Shown: piece by piece, positions 50,203 through 57,558 of the stretch | Layout: each line of letters starts with the position of its first letter | Numbering within the stretch: the first letter of the stretch is position 1 | Assembly: GCF_029223525.1 (NCBI RefSeq) | Contig: NZ_JARHTQ010000014.1 | Span: 62,001-126,000 of the forward strand | DNA from: Streptantibioticus ferralitis | GTDB taxonomy: Bacteria > Actinomycetota > Actinomycetes > Streptomycetales > Streptomycetaceae | Reading direction: 5' to 3' | Length of the DNA: 64,000 nt | Notes under the pieces: model-generated | Seen by the model: the letters and a program-made list of their open reading frames with translations, nothing else | Database searches by the model: none | What the model was told of the DNA's origin: nothing | Program-made: the position numbers and the translations under genes

Positions 50203-50553
50203 GGCCATCCTTCGCTCTTGACGCTCATGACGTACGAGATCCCTAAGTCTGCCGCACGCCACCGCACCCCTGCCGGTTTGTCGCCACGCCCGGCCCTCGC
50301 CCATGCTGGGGTGTCTGCTGTGCCGCCCTCCCGGGCGACCAGCCCCGGTCCAGGCCCTGGCGCGGCCGCCACCGGGCGGTAGTGAACGTGCGGTGAACGG
50401 TGCCTTCCGGGTATCCGATAGCCTCAGCCGTCGAACCCGCCCCAGCGACCTGCCGTGGCGGGACGCAGGCGCGTCTGGAAGCCGGGCGCCACGGGATGCA
50501 GCAGCCAACGCAGGCCATTGCCGTCGCCTCGACCCATCAGGGAGTGAGTTCGT
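50203..50553. other. Divergent promoter region between idi and the CDP-alcohol operon, 351 bp
   Basis: Both operons must start here. I see a GTGAAC direct repeat (50382 and 50393) and A/T-richer TATCCGATAGCC at 50412, which could be part of a promoter for the plus-strand operon. No small gene or riboswitch is recognisable. Confidence 0.4.
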
Positions 50554-52320
50554 CTGTCGACCGCCATCCTCACCGGTCCGCCGGTCGCGGACTCAACCCT
50601 GGAGGACGACCTGCGCCTCCTCGGCTTTGACGTGGTCGCCGCGGACAGCCCGGCGGAGCTGGCCGGCCACCTCAAGGCCGCGCCCGCCGGGACCAGGGTC
50701 GCCGTGGTCGACCGCCGCTTCACCGGGCACCGCCACGCGCTGCGGCTGGCCCTGATCGATCCGCGCTTCGCGGCCGGCGCCATCCCCGGCGCCCTCGGCG
50801 TCAGCGCGGCCGTCCGCGGGCAGCTGTGCCTCGCCGCCGACGGCCTCGCCGCCCCCGACGAGCTGGCCGCCGCGCTGGACACCGCGGGCGTCCCCGTACA
50901 CCGTCCGGAACTGGGCGTACTGACCGCCGCCGTGCCCACCGACGACGCGGAGCGCGCGCGGGTCCGCGGCGCCGTCGCGGCCGTCGACGAGGAGCAGGTT
51001 CGGCTGCGTACCGCCGTCAAGGCGCGTGACGGCTTCTTCACGACCTTCTGCGTCAGCCCGTACTCCCGCTACCTGGCCCGCTGGTGCGCCCGGCGCGGAC
51101 TCACCCCCAACCAGGTGACCACCGCCTCGCTGCTGGTCGCGCTGATCGCCGCCGGTTGCGCGGCCACCGGGACCAGGATCGGTTTCATCGCGGCGGGCGT
51201 CCTGCTGCTCGCCTCGTTCTTCCTGGACTGCACTGACGGGCAGCTGGCGCGGTACTCCCTGCAGTACTCCACGCTCGGCGCCTGGCTGGACGCCACCTTC
51301 GACCGGGCCAAGGAGTACGCGTACTACGCGGGCCTCGCGCTCGGCGCGGCCAGGGCGGGCGACGACGTCTGGGCGCTGGCGCTCGGCGCGATGGTGCTGC
51401 AGACCTGCCGCCATGTCGTGGACTTCTCCTTCAACGAGGCCGCCCACTTCGAAGACGGGGCCACCGCCAACACCAGCCCCACCGCCGCCCTCTCCGACCG
51501 GCTGGACAGCGTCGGCTGGACGGTCTGGGTGCGCCGGATGATCGTGCTGCCGATCGGCGAGCGCTGGGCGCTGATCGCGGTACTGACCGCGGCCACCACC
51601 CCGCGGGTGGTCTTCTACGCGCTGCTGGTCGGCTGCTCGCTCGCGGCCTGCTACACCACCGCGGGCCGGGTGCTGCGCTCGATCACCCGCAAGGCCCGGC
51701 GCACCGACCGGGCGGCACACGCGCTGGCCGACCTGGCCGACTCCGGCCCGCTCGCCGAGCTCGCGGCCCGGGTGCTGCCGTCCTTCGCGGCGCCCGCGGT
51801 CGCGGTGGCCGGCGGCGCCGCCGCGATCGGCACCGCCCTGTTCACCCCGTACGGCACCTGGTGGCCGGTGCTCGGGGCGGGCGTCTACTGCCTGACCTCG
51901 GCGGCGGCGGTCACGGGTCGGCTGAAGGGGGCGCTCGACTGGCTGGTTCCGCCGGTCTTCCGCGCCACTGAGTACGTGGTCGTACTGGCGCTCGCCGCAC
52001 GCTCCGGCGTGTCCGGCGCGCTTCCGGCGGCGTTCGGGCTGATCGCGGCCGTCGCCTACCATCACTACGACACGGTGTACCGCATCCGCGGCGGCACCGG
52101 TGCGCCTCCCAGGGCCTTGGTCCATGCGACCGGCGGCCATGAGGGCAGGCTGCTGGTGGCCACAGTGGCGGCCGCCCTGCTCGCGCACAGCACAGCTTTG
52201 ACAACGGCGCTCGCGGCTCTGGCCGGCTATCTGGCGCTCGTGGTGCTCACCGAGTCCATTCATTTCTGGGTCTCGGCCGGAGCACCCGCGGTACACGACG
52301 AAACAGGAGAACCCACATGA
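50554..52320 (+). CDS. CDP-alcohol phosphotransferase with C-terminal DUF5941
   Basis: 588 residues. The frame opens after TGA at 50545, and the only codon well placed behind GGAG (50541-50544) is CTG 50554; the next standard start, GTG 50632, would remove 26 residues. Residues 1-145 look like a degenerate nucleotidyltransferase-type domain. RTAVKARDGFFTTFCVSPYS then leads into a CDP-alcohol phosphotransferase with the full motif DCTDGQLARYS...G...D...D (about residues 228-253). The C-terminal 200 residues are membrane helices of DUF5941 type. It would join a CDP-activated alcohol to a second alcohol at the membrane. It overlaps the next gene by 4 bases. Confidence 0.85.
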   Translation: MSTAILTGPPVADSTLEDDLRLLGFDVVAADSPAELAGHLKAAPAGTRVAVVDRRFTGHRHALRLALIDPRFAAGAIPGALGVSAAVRGQLCLAADGLAAPDELAAALDTAGVPVHRPELGVLTAAVPTDDAERARVRGAVAAVDEEQVRLRTAVKARDGFFTTFCVSPYSRYLARWCARRGLTPNQVTTASLLVALIAAGCAATGTRIGFIAAGVLLLASFFLDCTDGQLARYSLQYSTLGAWLDATFDRAKEYAYYAGLALGAARAGDDVWALALGAMVLQTCRHVVDFSFNEAAHFEDGATANTSPTAALSDRLDSVGWTVWVRRMIVLPIGERWALIAVLTAATTPRVVFYALLVGCSLAACYTTAGRVLRSITRKARRTDRAAHALADLADSGPLAELAARVLPSFAAPAVAVAGGAAAIGTALFTPYGTWWPVLGAGVYCLTSAAAVTGRLKGALDWLVPPVFRATEYVVVLALAARSGVSGALPAAFGLIAAVAYHHYDTVYRIRGGTGAPPRALVHATGGHEGRLLVATVAAALLAHSTALTTALAALAGYLALVVLTESIHFWVSAGAPAVHDETGEPT

Positions 52321-53066
52321 TCGGCCTCGTGCTGGCGGCCGGCGCCGGACGGCGTCTTCGCCCCTACACCGACACCCTGCCGAAGGCCCTGGTCCCCGTG
52401 GACCCTGCGGGAGAGGGCACCACCACCGTCCTCGACCTGACCTTGGGCAACTTCGCCGAGGTCGGTCTGACCGACGCGGCCGTCGTCATCGGCTACCGCG
52501 GCGAGGCCGTCGTCGAGCGCCAGGCCGCGCTGGAGCGCAAGTACGGCGTCAAGCTGCACCTGGTCCACAACGACAAGGCCGAGGAGTGGAACAACGCCTA
52601 CTCCCTGTGGTGCGCCCGTGACGTCATCAAGGAAGGCGTGATCCTCGCCAACGGCGACACCGTGCACCCGGTCTCCGTCGAGCGCACCCTGCTCGACGCC
52701 CGGGGCAACGGGCAGCAGATCATCCTCGCCCTCGACACGGTGAAGAAGCTCGCCGACGAGGAGATGAAGGTCGTCACCGCCGACGGCCAGGGCGTGCGGC
52801 GCATCACCAAGCTGATGGACCCCGCCGACGCCACCGGTGAGTACATCGGTGTGACCCTCATCGAGTCCGAGGCCGCCGAGGCGCTCGCGGACGCCCTGAA
52901 GGCCACCTACGAGCGCGACCCGCAGCTGTACTACGAGGACGGCTACCAGGAGCTGGTCAACCGCGGCTTCCAGGTCGACACCGCCGCCATCGGCGAGGTC
53001 TCCTGGGTCGAGATCGACAACCACGACGACCTCAACCGCGCCCGGGAGATCGCGTGCCAGTACTGA
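52317..53066 (+). CDS. Nucleotidyltransferase (sugar/alcohol-phosphate cytidylyl- type)
   Basis: 249 residues from ATG 52317, coupled by ATGA to the preceding gene. The NTP-transferase signature LAAGAGRRLRPYTDTLPKAL is at the N-terminus, with ILANGDTVHP as the metal-binding acidic site and EVSWVEIDNHDDLNRA at the end. This resembles phosphocholine or inositol-phosphate cytidylyltransferases. It would produce the CDP-activated donor used by the phosphotransferases on either side; glycerol-1-phosphate or a polyol phosphate is a plausible substrate. It overlaps the next gene by 13 bases. Confidence 0.88.
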   Translation: MIGLVLAAGAGRRLRPYTDTLPKALVPVDPAGEGTTTVLDLTLGNFAEVGLTDAAVVIGYRGEAVVERQAALERKYGVKLHLVHNDKAEEWNNAYSLWCARDVIKEGVILANGDTVHPVSVERTLLDARGNGQQIILALDTVKKLADEEMKVVTADGQGVRRITKLMDPADATGEYIGVTLIESEAAEALADALKATYERDPQLYYEDGYQELVNRGFQVDTAAIGEVSWVEIDNHDDLNRAREIACQY

Positions 53067-54115
53067 CCCGGCTGATCCCCTCGCCGGTCGTCGTCGACAT
53101 CAACGGCGGTGCGCTGGACGACCTGGCCGGCCTCCTCGCCGACCAGCGGGTCTCCAGCTCGGGCAAGCTCGCGGTCGCCATCAGCGGAGGCTCCGGCCAG
53201 AAGCTGCGTGACCGGCTCGCTCCCGAGTTGCCGGGCGCCGACTGGTACTCGGTGGCGGGCGGCTCGCTGGACTCCGCCGTCAAGCTGGCCGACGCGATGC
53301 GCGGCAAGCGGTACGACGCGGTGGTCGGGCTCGGCGGCGGCAAGGTCATCGACGTGGCCAAGTACGCGGCCGCGCGGGTCGGGCTGCCCATGGTGGCCGT
53401 GGCGACCAACCTGTCGCACGACGGCATCTGCTCGCCGGTCTCCACCCTGGACAACGACAACGGCCGCGGTTCCTACGGTGTCCCGCAGCCGATCGCGCTG
53501 GTCATCGACCTCGACGTGATCCGCGACACCCCGGCCCGCTTCGTGCGCTCCGGCATCGGTGACGCGGTCTCCAACCTCTCCGCCATCGCGGACTGGGAGC
53601 TGTCCCACCGCGAGACCGGTGAACCCGTCGACGGCCTGGCCGCCGCGATGGCCCGCAGCGCGGGCGAGTCGGTGCTCCGGCACCCCGGCACCATCGCCGA
53701 CGACGACTTCCTGACCACGCTCGCCGAGGGCTTGGTGCTCTCCGGCATCGCCATGGCGATCAGCGGGGACACCCGCCCGTCGTCCGGCGCCTGCCATGAG
53801 ATCAGCCATGCCTTCGACCTGCTGTACCCGCAGCGGGCCGCCTCGCACGGCGAACAGGTGGGCATCGGTGCGGCGTTCGCGATGTACCTGCGCGGCGCCA
53901 CGGCGGAGGCCCAGCACATCGCCGACGTCCTGCGGCGGCACAGCCTGCCGGTGCTACCGGGCGAAATCGGCTTCTCCGACGCCGAGTTCGTCTCAGCCGT
54001 GGAGTACGCGCCGCAGACCCGCCCCGGGCGGTACACGATCCTGGAACACCTGGACCTCGACACCGACGCGATCAGGGATGCGTACGCGGACTATGTCAAA
54101 GCCATCGGTAGCTGA
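53054..54115 (+). CDS. Glycerol-1-phosphate dehydrogenase-like iron/zinc alcohol dehydrogenase
   Basis: 353 residues from GTG 53054. NAD(P)-binding glycines are in AVVGLGGGKVIDVAKYAAAR. The metal-site strand NLSHDGICSPVSTL is characteristic of archaeal EgsA and bacterial AraM glycerol-1-phosphate dehydrogenases rather than glycerol dehydrogenases. Metal histidines follow in GACHEISHAFD and SHGEQVG. It reduces dihydroxyacetone phosphate to sn-glycerol-1-phosphate, the archaeal-type enantiomer. Its place between a cytidylyltransferase and a CDP-alcohol phosphotransferase suggests that G1P is activated and built into a lipid or polymer. Confidence 0.85.
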   Translation: MPVLTRLIPSPVVVDINGGALDDLAGLLADQRVSSSGKLAVAISGGSGQKLRDRLAPELPGADWYSVAGGSLDSAVKLADAMRGKRYDAVVGLGGGKVIDVAKYAAARVGLPMVAVATNLSHDGICSPVSTLDNDNGRGSYGVPQPIALVIDLDVIRDTPARFVRSGIGDAVSNLSAIADWELSHRETGEPVDGLAAAMARSAGESVLRHPGTIADDDFLTTLAEGLVLSGIAMAISGDTRPSSGACHEISHAFDLLYPQRAASHGEQVGIGAAFAMYLRGATAEAQHIADVLRRHSLPVLPGEIGFSDAEFVSAVEYAPQTRPGRYTILEHLDLDTDAIRDAYADYVKAIGS

Positions 54116-54872
54116 ACTGCGGCCGGTCGTTCACCCCGCCGGGGTGAAGGACCGGCGCAGCGGTGAGCACTGGGCCGGGCGCGCCTACATGCGGGAGATC
54201 TCCCTGCGGGTGGACCGGCACCTGGTGAACACGCGGGTCACGCCCAACCAGCTGACCTATCTGATGACCGTCTTCGGCGTCCTCGCCTGCCCCGCCCTGC
54301 TGGTGCCGGGCATTCCGGGCGCCGTGCTCGGCGTGCTGATGGTCCAGCTCTACCTGCTGCTCGACTGCGTCGACGGCGAGATCGCCCGTTGGAAGAAGCA
54401 GTTCTCGCTCGGCGGCGTGTACCTGGACCGAGTCGGCGCCTACCTTTGCGACGCCGCGGTCCTGGTCGGCTTCGGCCTGCGCGCCGCTGACCCGTGGGGC
54501 TCCGGGCGGATCGACTGGCTGTGGGCCTTTCTCGGTACCCTCGCCGCGCTCGGCGCGATCCTGATCAAGGCCGAGACCGACCTCGTCGCCGTCGCCCGTC
54601 ACCAGGGCGGGTTGCCGCCGGTCAAGGAGGCGGCGTCCGAGCCGCGTTCGTCCGGTATGGCGCTGGCCCGTAAGGCCGCTGCGGCCCTGAAGTTCCACCG
54701 GCTCGTGCTGGGGATCGAGGCGTCCCTGGTGATCCTGGTCCTGGCGATCGCGGACTCGATCAGGGGCGACCTGTTCTTCTCGCGGCTGGGCGTCGCCGTG
54801 CTGGCCGCGATCGCCGTGCTGCAGACCCTGCTGCACCTGGTGTCCATCCTCGCTTCGAGCAGGCTGCGGTGA
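54093..54872 (+). CDS. CDP-alcohol phosphatidyltransferase, variant motif
   Basis: 259 residues from ATG 54093, overlapping the dehydrogenase gene by 23 bases. Membrane protein with the CDP-alcohol motif DCVDGEIARWKKQFSLGG then VYLDRVGAYLCD. The first three aspartates are in place. The fourth, expected three residues after the third (DxxxD), is replaced: the residue there is Ala, and the next Asp comes only seven residues on. The normal enzyme uses that aspartate as catalytic base, so either this subgroup works differently or activity is altered. It would couple a CDP-linked head group in the pathway built by its neighbours. Confidence 0.85.
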   Translation: MSKPSVAELRPVVHPAGVKDRRSGEHWAGRAYMREISLRVDRHLVNTRVTPNQLTYLMTVFGVLACPALLVPGIPGAVLGVLMVQLYLLLDCVDGEIARWKKQFSLGGVYLDRVGAYLCDAAVLVGFGLRAADPWGSGRIDWLWAFLGTLAALGAILIKAETDLVAVARHQGGLPPVKEAASEPRSSGMALARKAAAALKFHRLVLGIEASLVILVLAIADSIRGDLFFSRLGVAVLAAIAVLQTLLHLVSILASSRLR

Positions 54873-55756
54873 CGGCCGCGGTCACGAAGCTCGGCGCGGT
54901 GGTGCTCACCATGGGCAACCGCCCCGCCGAGCTGCGCGCGCTGCTGGACTCCGTCGCCAAGCAGCGCGGCGACGCCGTCGAGGTGGTGGTGGTCGGCAAC
55001 GGCTCACCGCTGCCCGAACTCCCCGACGGCGTACGGACCGTGGAGCTGCCGGAGAACCTGGGCATCCCGGCCGGACGCAACGTGGGCATCGAGGCGTTCG
55101 GCCCGGGCGGCCGCGAGGTCGACGCGATCCTCTTCCTGGACGACGACGGCTTCCTGCCCAACGACGACACCGCGGAACTGGTGCGCGAGGCGTTCACCGC
55201 CGACCCGGGGCTCGGCATCCTCAGCTTTCGCATCACCGACCCGGAGACCGGCACCACCCAGCGCCGCCACGTACCGCGGCTGCGCGCTTCGGATCCGATG
55301 CGCTCCTCCCGGGTCACCACCTTCCTCGGCGGCGCCAGCGCGGCCAGGACCGCCGTCTTCCAGCAGGTCGGCGGGCTGCCCGACGAGTTCTTCTACGCCC
55401 ATGAGGAGACCGACCTGGCCTGGCGGGCGCTGGATGCCGGATGGCTGATCGACTACCGGTCCGACATGGTGCTCGAACACCCCGCGACCGCTCCGAGCAG
55501 GCACGCCGTGTACCACCGGATGGTGGCCCGCAACCGGGTGTGGCTGGCCCGGCGGAACCTTCCGGCTCCCCTGGTGCCGCTCTATCTGGGAACCTGGATC
55601 CTGCTGACCCTCGCCCGGCGCCCGTCCAGGAAGGCACTGCGGGCCTGGCTGGGCGGATTCAAGGAGGGCTGGACCAACCCCTGTGGCGCGCGTCACACAA
55701 TGAAGTGGCGTACGGTTTGGCGGCTGACCCGACTGGGACGACCACCCATCATCTGA
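54869..55756 (+). CDS. Family 2 glycosyltransferase
   Basis: 295 residues from GTG 54869, overlapping the previous stop as GTGA. GT-A fold with GAVVLTMGNRPAELRALLDS, the nucleotide-sugar-binding DDD in ILFLDDDGFLPNDD and the acceptor-side acid in FFYAHEETDLAWRALDAGW. A C-terminal hydrophobic stretch (VPLYLGTWILLTLARR) may hold it to the membrane. It resembles rhamnosyl or galactofuranosyl-type GT2 enzymes. In the operon it likely glycosylates the glycerol- or polyol-phosphate product before export. Confidence 0.9.
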   Translation: MTAAVTKLGAVVLTMGNRPAELRALLDSVAKQRGDAVEVVVVGNGSPLPELPDGVRTVELPENLGIPAGRNVGIEAFGPGGREVDAILFLDDDGFLPNDDTAELVREAFTADPGLGILSFRITDPETGTTQRRHVPRLRASDPMRSSRVTTFLGGASAARTAVFQQVGGLPDEFFYAHEETDLAWRALDAGWLIDYRSDMVLEHPATAPSRHAVYHRMVARNRVWLARRNLPAPLVPLYLGTWILLTLARRPSRKALRAWLGGFKEGWTNPCGARHTMKWRTVWRLTRLGRPPII

Positions 55757-55826
55757 CAAGCTCGGATGGAAACGCATCGGGTGCCGACCGGGATCCCGCC
55801 CCGGTCGGCGCATCATGAGGACGAAA

Positions 55827-56765
55827 GTGTCAACTGTGAGCGATACCACGCACGAGGGCGCGGTCGCCGTGAGCACCCCGCCGGCGCCGTCTGCCGGCGA
55901 CGGCCTCTCCGCGGCCGAGCTGGCGGCCAAGTACGGGCTGTCAGTGAGCGGCGCCCGGCCGAGCCTGCCTGAGTACGTACGCCAGTTGTGGGGACGTCGG
56001 CACTTCATCGTGGCGTACTCCGTCGCCCGGCTGAGCGCCCAGTACACCAAGGCCCGGCTCGGCCAGATCTGGAACGTGATGACGCCGCTGCTCAACGCGG
56101 CCGTCTACTACCTGATCTTCGGCGTACTGCTGCAGACCAACCACGGCATCGACAACTTCATCGCCTATCTGGTCACCGGCGTCTTCGTCTTCAACTTCAC
56201 GCAGTCCACGGTGCTCGCCGGCACCCGCGCCATCTCCGACAACCTCGGACTGATCCGCGCGCTGCACTTCCCACGGGCCGCACTGCCGATCTCGGTCACC
56301 CTCATCCAGCTCCAGCAGCTGCTGTACTCGATGATCGTGCTGGTCGCCATCGTGCTGATGACGGGCGAGGTGCCGCAGTTCTCGTGGTTCCTGCTGATTC
56401 CGACGCTGGTGCTGCAGTCCGTCTTCAACATCGGTGTCGCGCTGTACGTGGCCCGGCTCGGCAGCAAGGTCACCGACCTCGCCCAGCTCATGCCCTTCCT
56501 GCTGCGCACCTGGATGTACGTCTCCGGTGTGTTCTACGCGATCGACAAGGTCGTCAAGCATCTGCCGTCCGCGGTCGGTGTGTTGCTCGATCTGAACCCG
56601 GCCGCCGTGTACATCGACTTGATCCGCTTCGCGCTGATCGACAGCTTCACCTCCGCGCAACTGCCGCACCACGTGTGGATCGCCGCCGTGGCATGGGCGG
56701 TTGTCGCCGGTATCGGGGGCTTTGTGTTCTTCTGGAAGGCTGAGGAGCAGTACGGTCGTGGCTGA
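55827..56765 (+). CDS. ABC-2 type permease, TagG/Wzm-like
   Basis: 312 residues from GTG 55827, chosen for GAGGA 5 bases upstream; ATG 55815 would add four residues. A soluble N-terminal 55 residues are followed by the TagG-type start (SARLSAQYTKARLGQIWNVM) and six membrane helices. It pairs with the ATPase encoded next, overlapping by 8 bases, to form an exporter of lipid-linked teichoic-acid or polysaccharide-like polymers. This position supports an exported cell-surface product for the operon. Confidence 0.9.
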   Translation: MSTVSDTTHEGAVAVSTPPAPSAGDGLSAAELAAKYGLSVSGARPSLPEYVRQLWGRRHFIVAYSVARLSAQYTKARLGQIWNVMTPLLNAAVYYLIFGVLLQTNHGIDNFIAYLVTGVFVFNFTQSTVLAGTRAISDNLGLIRALHFPRAALPISVTLIQLQQLLYSMIVLVAIVLMTGEVPQFSWFLLIPTLVLQSVFNIGVALYVARLGSKVTDLAQLMPFLLRTWMYVSGVFYAIDKVVKHLPSAVGVLLDLNPAAVYIDLIRFALIDSFTSAQLPHHVWIAAVAWAVVAGIGGFVFFWKAEEQYGRG

Positions 56766-57558
56766 GCAGAGTGGAACCGGTGCGGTGTCCGAGTCCGGTG
56801 AGCGTGTGCCCACGGTGATCGTGGATGATCTGCACATCGTGTACCGGGTGCACGGTGCGGGCAGTGGCAAGGGGAGCGCGACGGCGGCGTTGAGCCGGAT
56901 CGTGCGGCGTCGTACGTCGCCGAATGTGCGTGAGGTGCATGCGGTGCGCGGGGTGAGTTTTGTCGCGTACCGGGGTGAGGCGGTGGGGCTTATCGGGTCG
57001 AATGGTTCGGGTAAGTCGACGATGTTGCGGGCGATCGCGGGGTTGTTGCCGCCGGAGCGGGGCCGGGTCTATACGGATGGTCAGCCGTCGTTGTTGGGGG
57101 TGAACGCGGCGTTGATGAATGACCTGACAGGGGAGCGGAACGTGATCCTGGGTGGGTTGGCGATGGGGATGGGGAATAGCGAGGTCCGGGAGAAGTATCA
57201 GGACATTGTGGACTTCTCGGGGATCAATGAGAAGGGTGATTTCATCTCGTTGCCGATGCGGACGTATTCGTCGGGTATGGCGGCGCGGTTGCGGTTTTCG
57301 ATCGCGGCGGCGAAGCAGCACGATGTGTTGATGATCGATGAGGCGTTGGCGACGGGTGACCGGGCGTTTCAGAGGCGGTCGGAGGAGCGGATCCGGGAGT
57401 TGCGGGCGGAGGCCGGGACGGTGTTCCTGGTGAGCCACAACAACAAGTCGATCCGGGACACCTGTGACCGGGTGTTGTGGTTGGAGAAGGGCGAGCTGTG
57501 GATGGACGGCCCGACCGAGCAGGTGCTTGAGGCGTACGAGCGGCACACCGGCAAATAG
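56758..57558 (+). CDS. ABC transporter ATPase, TagH/Wzt-like
   Basis: 266 residues from GTG 56758, with GAGGAG 10 bases upstream. Walker A GLIGSNGSGKSTMLRAIAGL, signature YSSGMAARLRFSIAA (degenerate, as usual in TagH), Walker B VLMIDEALATGD and the switch histidine in FLVSHNN. There is no C-terminal carbohydrate-binding domain. From about 56860 to 57480, codon use differs from its neighbours: leucine is mostly TTG and third positions are G- and T-rich rather than C-rich. This suggests a different history for this segment. It powers export with the TagG-like permease. Confidence 0.9.
   Translation: MAEQSGTGAVSESGERVPTVIVDDLHIVYRVHGAGSGKGSATAALSRIVRRRTSPNVREVHAVRGVSFVAYRGEAVGLIGSNGSGKSTMLRAIAGLLPPERGRVYTDGQPSLLGVNAALMNDLTGERNVILGGLAMGMGNSEVREKYQDIVDFSGINEKGDFISLPMRTYSSGMAARLRFSIAAAKQHDVLMIDEALATGDRAFQRRSEERIRELRAEAGTVFLVSHNNKSIRDTCDRVLWLEKGELWMDGPTEQVLEAYERHTGK

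Follow-up and report, generated by a model that had tools for sequence, protein, structure and literature searches.

A seven-gene operon of Streptomycetaceae with a predicted role in actinomycete teichoic-acid biosynthesis

Introduction

In Bacillus, wall teichoic acid (WTA) is built from sn-glycerol-3-phosphate and lipoteichoic acid (LTA) from sn-glycerol-1-phosphate (G1P), and the phosphodiesterase GlpQ distinguishes the two polymers (PMC7086022). The G1P units of LtaS-type LTA come from phosphatidylglycerol outside the cell (PMC7086022), and LtaS has been reported absent in Actinobacteria (PMC3196553). Streptomyces hygroscopicus possesses a phosphoglycerol LTA closely resembling its own WTA without having LtaS (PMC3196553), and bacteria have been described as probably having no CDP-1-glycerol (PMC8262930). 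A Streptomyces crtB-tagH-tagG-araM synteny block was published in 2026 (PMC13118837); its locus is identical to the operon described here, and it was presented as orphan-cluster synteny with the labels tagH, tagG and araM, no pathway, substrate or function being given, so that the preliminary description of this DNA, which knew of no assigned product for such an operon, still holds on that point.

The operon, whose genes are called A to G below, was analysed in a window of 64,000 nucleotides from Streptantibioticus ferralitis. With the TagD-TagB-TagF-TagGH pathway of Bacillus WTA it has in common a CDP-glycerol-type donor, TagF-like polymerases, a TagGH-class exporter and LCP ligases, and phosphate-linked regulation is suggested as a further likeness; it differs in having no TagD, in a donor predicted to derive from G1P via a LicC-like enzyme, in two membrane CDP-alcohol transferases and in the predicted opposite hand of its polymer. 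LtaS-type LTA shares G1P units with the polymer predicted for the operon, whereas the predicted donor of the latter is a cytosolic CDP compound. The AraM-PcrB route of Bacillus, leading to a G1P heptaprenyl ether lipid, likewise has a bacterial G1P dehydrogenase, but PcrB was absent from all 18 genomes tested here, and the structures closest to C are archaeal and clostridial G1P dehydrogenases (G1PDHs), entry 9h4x being more distant. The archaeal CDP-inositol and CDP-alcohol systems represented by IPCT-DIPP synthase and AF2299 have the same folds as A and B and the same logic of a cytidylyltransferase coupled to a CDP-alcohol phosphotransferase, while the operon has separate proteins, a dehydrogenase product instead of inositol phosphate, DUF5941 and an exporter.

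Layout and conservation of the operon

A preliminary description had proposed an operon of seven genes at 50554-57558, starting at 50554 and joined by start/stop overlaps or short gaps. All seven genes are present on the plus strand (Table 1), the start coordinate agrees with the CTG start of gene A, and adjacent genes either overlap or lie no more than 58 bp apart, making a compact operon. The stop of A overlaps the start of B at 52317, B (ending at 53066) overlaps C (starting at 53054), C (ending at 54115) overlaps D (ATG at 54093), and D overlaps E at 54869-54872; the widest spacing is the 58 bp between E and F, followed by about 19 bp between F and G if the latter starts at GTG 56785. All family matches exceeded the Pfam cut-offs (A, 294 bits for DUF5941 and 37 for CDP-OH_P_transf; B, 52 for NTP_transferase; C, 101 for Fe-ADH_2; D, 30; E, 45; F, 44; G, 68).

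Table 1. Features of the operon and its promoter region (positions in the window)
Feature	Coordinates	Strand	Remarks
A, NTase-like N-domain, CDP-alcohol phosphotransferase and DUF5941	50554..52317	+	CTG start; CDP-alcohol motif intact
B, LicC/IPCT/PntC-like cytidylyltransferase	52317..53066	+	profile and fold matches
C, sn-glycerol-1-phosphate dehydrogenase family enzyme	53054..54115	+	D170, H248 and H265 invariant
D, second CDP-alcohol phosphotransferase	54093..54872	+	Ala in place of the last motif Asp; most relatives have His
E, GT2 glycosyltransferase	54869..55756	+	family match
F, ABC-2 permease, TagG/Wzm-like	55815..56765	+	family match
G, ABC ATPase, TagH/Wzt-like	56785..57558	+	likely GTG start 56785; ORF open from 56701
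PHO-box-like direct repeat GTTCACC-GCAC-GTTCACT	50381..50398	-	about 155 bp upstream of gene A

The start of gene A was CTG in 69 of the 73 orthologues examined and TTG in the other four, with neither ATG nor GTG in any. It follows a conserved AAGGAG-TGAGTTCGT leader (window 50535-50580), with an in-frame TGA three codons upstream. A non-canonical start conserved with such regularity is unusual, and it may have a regulatory role.

The operon is flanked upstream by the divergent idi (ATG at 50208) and on the other side by the hopanoid genes hpnC, hpnD and hpnE. Most of 80 named Streptomycetaceae loci share the order idi-|A-B-C-D-E-F-G|-hpnC-hpnD-hpnE, and since it recurs so widely the arrangement is not due to chance; the exceptions mostly reflect the end of a contig or one gene that the search overlooked. 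The operon occurs throughout Streptomyces and in many other actinomycetes; the nearest relative of C from this host, itself a member of Streptomycetaceae, belongs to Streptomyces sp. RPT161 (96%). In S. coelicolor, A-G would be SCO6752-6758, a numbering taken from gene order since SCO6751 turned out to be zitB.

Putative donor enzymes C and B

The profile of C matched solved G1PDH-type chains, one of which (3ce9) carries the name glycerol dehydrogenase, at 223, 216, 216, 188 and 120 bits, compared with at most 77 bits for other glycerol dehydrogenases. Its GGG motif, DGxxSPV and RPxSGxxHExxHA segments and three metal-ligand positions are conserved in 22 homologues. Among these, D170, H248 and H265, which we take to be the zinc ligands (Asp, His, His), are invariant, and they align with the Mj G1PDH. 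C does not reach the NCBIfam equivalog PRK00843 (243 bits, cut-off 413), so that it is best regarded as a predicted relative within the G1PDH family, although in sequence solved G1PDHs lie much nearer to it than glycerol dehydrogenases, dehydroquinate synthases or any other group.

For B, LicC, IPCT and PntC ranked first in a profile search of solved structures and were among the top seven fold matches of a predicted model (pLDDT 94); these nearest relatives are CTP enzymes acting on phospho-alcohols or phosphonates. The proposal that a G1P-type dehydrogenase feeds a cytidylyltransferase and CDP-alcohol transferases is supported by the comparative evidence, and it is likely that B and C together make CDP-1-glycerol.

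A different ketose phosphate, such as ribulose 5-phosphate, could instead be reduced by C and converted by B into a CDP-pentitol, giving a ribitol- or arabinitol-type teichoic acid. The shortfall of C against the G1PDH cut-off and the occurrence of ribitol WTA in some streptomycetes (PMC13274773) would suit such a route. We nevertheless regard it as improbable, given the proximity of C to solved G1PDHs and the character of the host polymerases, which are two PF04464 proteins resembling TarF (196 and 180 bits; glycerol phosphate) rather than TarL (77 and 66 bits; ribitol phosphate).

No TagD was found in the host genome with TIGR01518, the best match (43.5 bits, cut-off 165) being an HldE-like protein; no TarI was evident there, and IspD gave a single strong match, presumably the MEP-pathway enzyme. 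Since TagD is missing and IspD is matched strongly only once, no CDP-polyol synthetase other than B was found in the host. A distant TagD-like protein below the cut-off (58-68 bits), encoded outside the operon (e.g., L195:5700-6138), was present in 10 of 28 sampled Streptomycetaceae, the host not among them, and could there be a source of ordinary CDP-glycerol.

Membrane enzymes and exporter

In A the motif D1xxD2GxxAR...GxxxD3xxxD4 is intact (DCTDGQLAR...GAWLDATFD), and the best fold matches of its model (pLDDT 89.5) were AF2299, PIP synthase and IPCT-DIPPS. A functional N-terminal cytidylyltransferase in A was rejected, as nucleotidyltransferase fold matches were weak and the LAAGxGxR motif was absent. 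We also considered whether DUF5941, for which no literature was found, might be a degenerate second copy of the CDP-alcohol transferase domain; its model is all-helical, yet profile similarity was absent and the idea was abandoned. A second copy of the DUF5941 and CDP-alcohol transferase combination occurs in f17 genomes, distant from any teichoic genes (L039, L041).

The last Asp of the CDP-alcohol phosphotransferase motif is usually regarded as the catalytic base. D does not carry the full motif: at this fourth position 19 of 20 aligned homologues have His, as do nearly all families, and the protein of the window has Ala, which is general in core Streptomycetaceae. Because D is without the usual catalytic base, it may be a pseudoenzyme, a heterodimer partner of A or an enzyme with another mechanism.

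The likeness of the CDP-alcohol phosphotransferases A and D to PIP synthase could suggest that the operon serves ordinary phosphatidylinositol or cardiolipin synthesis. This reading was rejected as highly improbable, since both proteins fall far under the equivalog cut-offs (66 of 180 and 50 of 170 bits, and lower) and the operon is linked to LCP, TagF and exporter genes. The ATPase G appears by sequence to be of the same class as TagH, while remaining below that equivalog (168 bits, cut-off 320), with galactan Wzt nearly as close (153 of 400).

Genomic neighbourhoods and co-occurrence

In other actinomycete families, homologues of A-G lie near genes for LCP ligases, PF04464 TagF-like proteins, IspD/TarI-like proteins and Stealth, and further neighbours include UDP-sugar dehydrogenase, glycerophosphodiesterase and cell-wall amidases. 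Loci of the wall teichoic acid kind, recognised by TagF-like, LCP and exporter genes lying together, were thereby found in these families. The TagF genes of the host are on contigs other than that of the operon, and in Streptomycetaceae the operon generally lies away from TagF genes. A second copy of C in one streptomycete (G133) is about 6 kb from two TagF-like genes, and a TagF cluster of the same genome contains close paralogues of F and G (65% and 73%; L095). The neighbourhoods in other families and the arrangement in this streptomycete therefore place the operon in teichoic-acid metabolism, a function we assign with considerable confidence. In f17 genomes a glycerophosphodiester phosphodiesterase gene (GDPD, GlpQ superfamily) adjoins the cluster (L038:14388-15137 and equivalents), and the stereospecificity of this enzyme would be telling.

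Among 297 genomes of the class, from 115 genera, C was found in 72, B in 72 and both in 71; in the one genome with C only (G084) and the one with B only (G097) the gene lies at a contig end and its partner would fall off the contig, so that B and C are inseparable across the 297 genomes. C spans 30 of the 115 genera, and the co-occurrence counts ignore relatedness. A full-length TagF-like PF04464 protein was present in 69 of the 72 genomes with C, three having none, and in 47 of the 225 without (Fisher p 5e-32, kinship ignored). A full-length TagD-like protein (at least 109 bits), in contrast, occurred in none of the 72 and in 23 of the 225. The operon thus probably takes the place of the usual bacterial TagD in genomes without it.

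The 116 genomes with strong PF04464 matches comprised 69 with C, 14 with TagD and 33 with neither. Of these 33, one is the B-only genome G097 and 25 carry NTP3 (54-100% identity), an unrelated and uncharacterised PF12804 nucleotidyltransferase (L049:12830-13525, L035:15365-16048 and others). At the 54-100% level NTP3 was absent from the seven C genomes tested, in which one weak paralogue (39%) was seen, and in clusters with A and D it was found in 8 of 8 lacking B/C and in 0 of 18 having them. A sequence search found no relative of NTP3 among solved structures. From its distribution, NTP3 seems to stand in for B/C in the teichoic clusters of other families of actinomycetes and is possibly a further CDP-polyol synthetase; we therefore read the two as exchangeable donor modules.

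Another possible reading is that B and C supply CDP-1-glycerol solely to A and D, for one fixed G1P-containing piece such as a linkage unit, a lipid anchor or the head group of a glycolipid, with the polymer made from other CDP-polyols. A, D and E do travel together and in f17 genomes adjoin an IspD/TarI-like gene, a possible source of CDP-ribitol, and ribitol phosphate makes up most of the WTA of S. griseus, which has GroP in terminal position (PMC13274773). Set against this, B/C also neighbour TagF-like genes and TagGH in clusters that have no A, D or E (L103, L109), and 14 of 18 genomes tested have one strong IspD match only, leaving such a restricted use of the donor unlikely, though the best placed of the alternatives.

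The flanks in Streptomycetaceae, idi and hpnCDE, together with the G1PDH homology of C, could also suggest an archaeal-type G1P ether lipid or a prenyl-linked phospholipid drawing on these isoprenoid genes. PcrB/GGGP synthase was absent from all 18 genomes tested, the host included, and an archaeal-type ether lipid is hence very unlikely; this route was rejected. The prenyl link that the preliminary description had allowed through the divergent idi, or one to hopanoids, was discarded as well, as these neighbours accompany only the Streptomycetaceae copies, and clusters of other families are flanked by wall genes rather than isoprenoid genes.

Promoter and phosphate regulation

The PHO-box-like repeat, the best match in the window, has one mismatch in 14 specified bases. 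A best match with at most two mismatches was found in 39 of 74 Streptomycetaceae promoter regions, all 39 on the minus strand and at roughly constant distance and orientation, compared with 7 of 1480 single-base shuffles and 0 of 74 coding regions of equal length. The promoter thus carries the PHO-box direct repeats by which Pho regulon members are recognised, which suggests that the operon may belong to this regulon. SCO6753 is on a list of PhoP targets with a PHO box (PMC4173021), and because gene order equates SCO6753 with B of S. coelicolor, the report would apply to the operon to the extent that this numbering is right.

Proposed pathway and implications

In the pathway that we propose, C would reduce dihydroxyacetone phosphate to G1P, from which B would form CDP-1-glycerol with CTP; with this donor A and D, both membrane enzymes, would together with E assemble or prime a glycerophosphate-containing unit linked to lipid, either a linkage unit or an anchor. 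Extension of the unit would fall to TagF/TarF-like polymerases, whose genes adjoin the operon in many families and in the host lie elsewhere in the genome; F/G would export the polymer and LCP enzymes would attach it. Because the donor would come from G1P, the predicted polymer is the mirror image of Bacillus WTA. Observed here are the genes present and the families to which they belong, the linkage of B with C, the joint occurrence with TagF-like genes, the exclusion of TagD, the neighbourhood and the promoter motif; substrates, stereochemistry, order of steps and the division of labour between A and D are predictions. The presence of phosphoglycerol WTA and LTA in Streptomyces, which have no LtaS (PMC3196553), counts for the pathway, and the report that teichulosonic acid and PDP, not poly(GroP), are the main wall polymers of S. 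coelicolor (PMC7831098) counts against it, as do the replaced Asp of D, the separation of the operon from TagF genes in Streptomycetaceae, the distant TagD-like protein of some members of that family and the three C genomes without PF04464. On balance we lean somewhat towards the view that the operon provides donor synthesis, membrane transfer and export for an actinomycete teichoic-acid pathway with a mirror-image polymer. Of the earlier proposal of an exported, archaeal-handed glycerophosphate lipid or polymer, the polymer has gained ground through the wall-gene neighbours, the lipid has not, given the absence of PcrB, and export of a teichoic-acid-like polymer is supported by the comparative evidence; the suggested comparison of gene order across actinobacteria also bore fruit, the order recurring in Streptomycetaceae and homologues of A-G standing beside wall genes in other families.

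If the proposal is true, it would give a role to the actinobacterial G1P dehydrogenases, known from lipid-evolution studies (PMC6431249), for which we found no assigned product, and would explain donor supply in TagF-bearing actinomycetes without TagD. It would also provide candidate genes for the phosphoglycerol LTA made by actinomycetes without LtaS (PMC3196553), and GlpQ, a phosphodiesterase specific for G3P, would be expected not to digest the polymer. The chances seem to us evenly balanced that CDP-1-glycerol is the standard phosphoglycerol teichoic acid donor in Streptomyces and in about a quarter of the sampled Actinomycetes genomes, whose wall, and perhaps lipo-, teichoic acids would thus be archaeal-handed and made without TagD or LtaS. 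The archaeal enantiomer would then reside in a bacterial wall polymer and not in a lipid, which would bear on arguments about the lipid divide.
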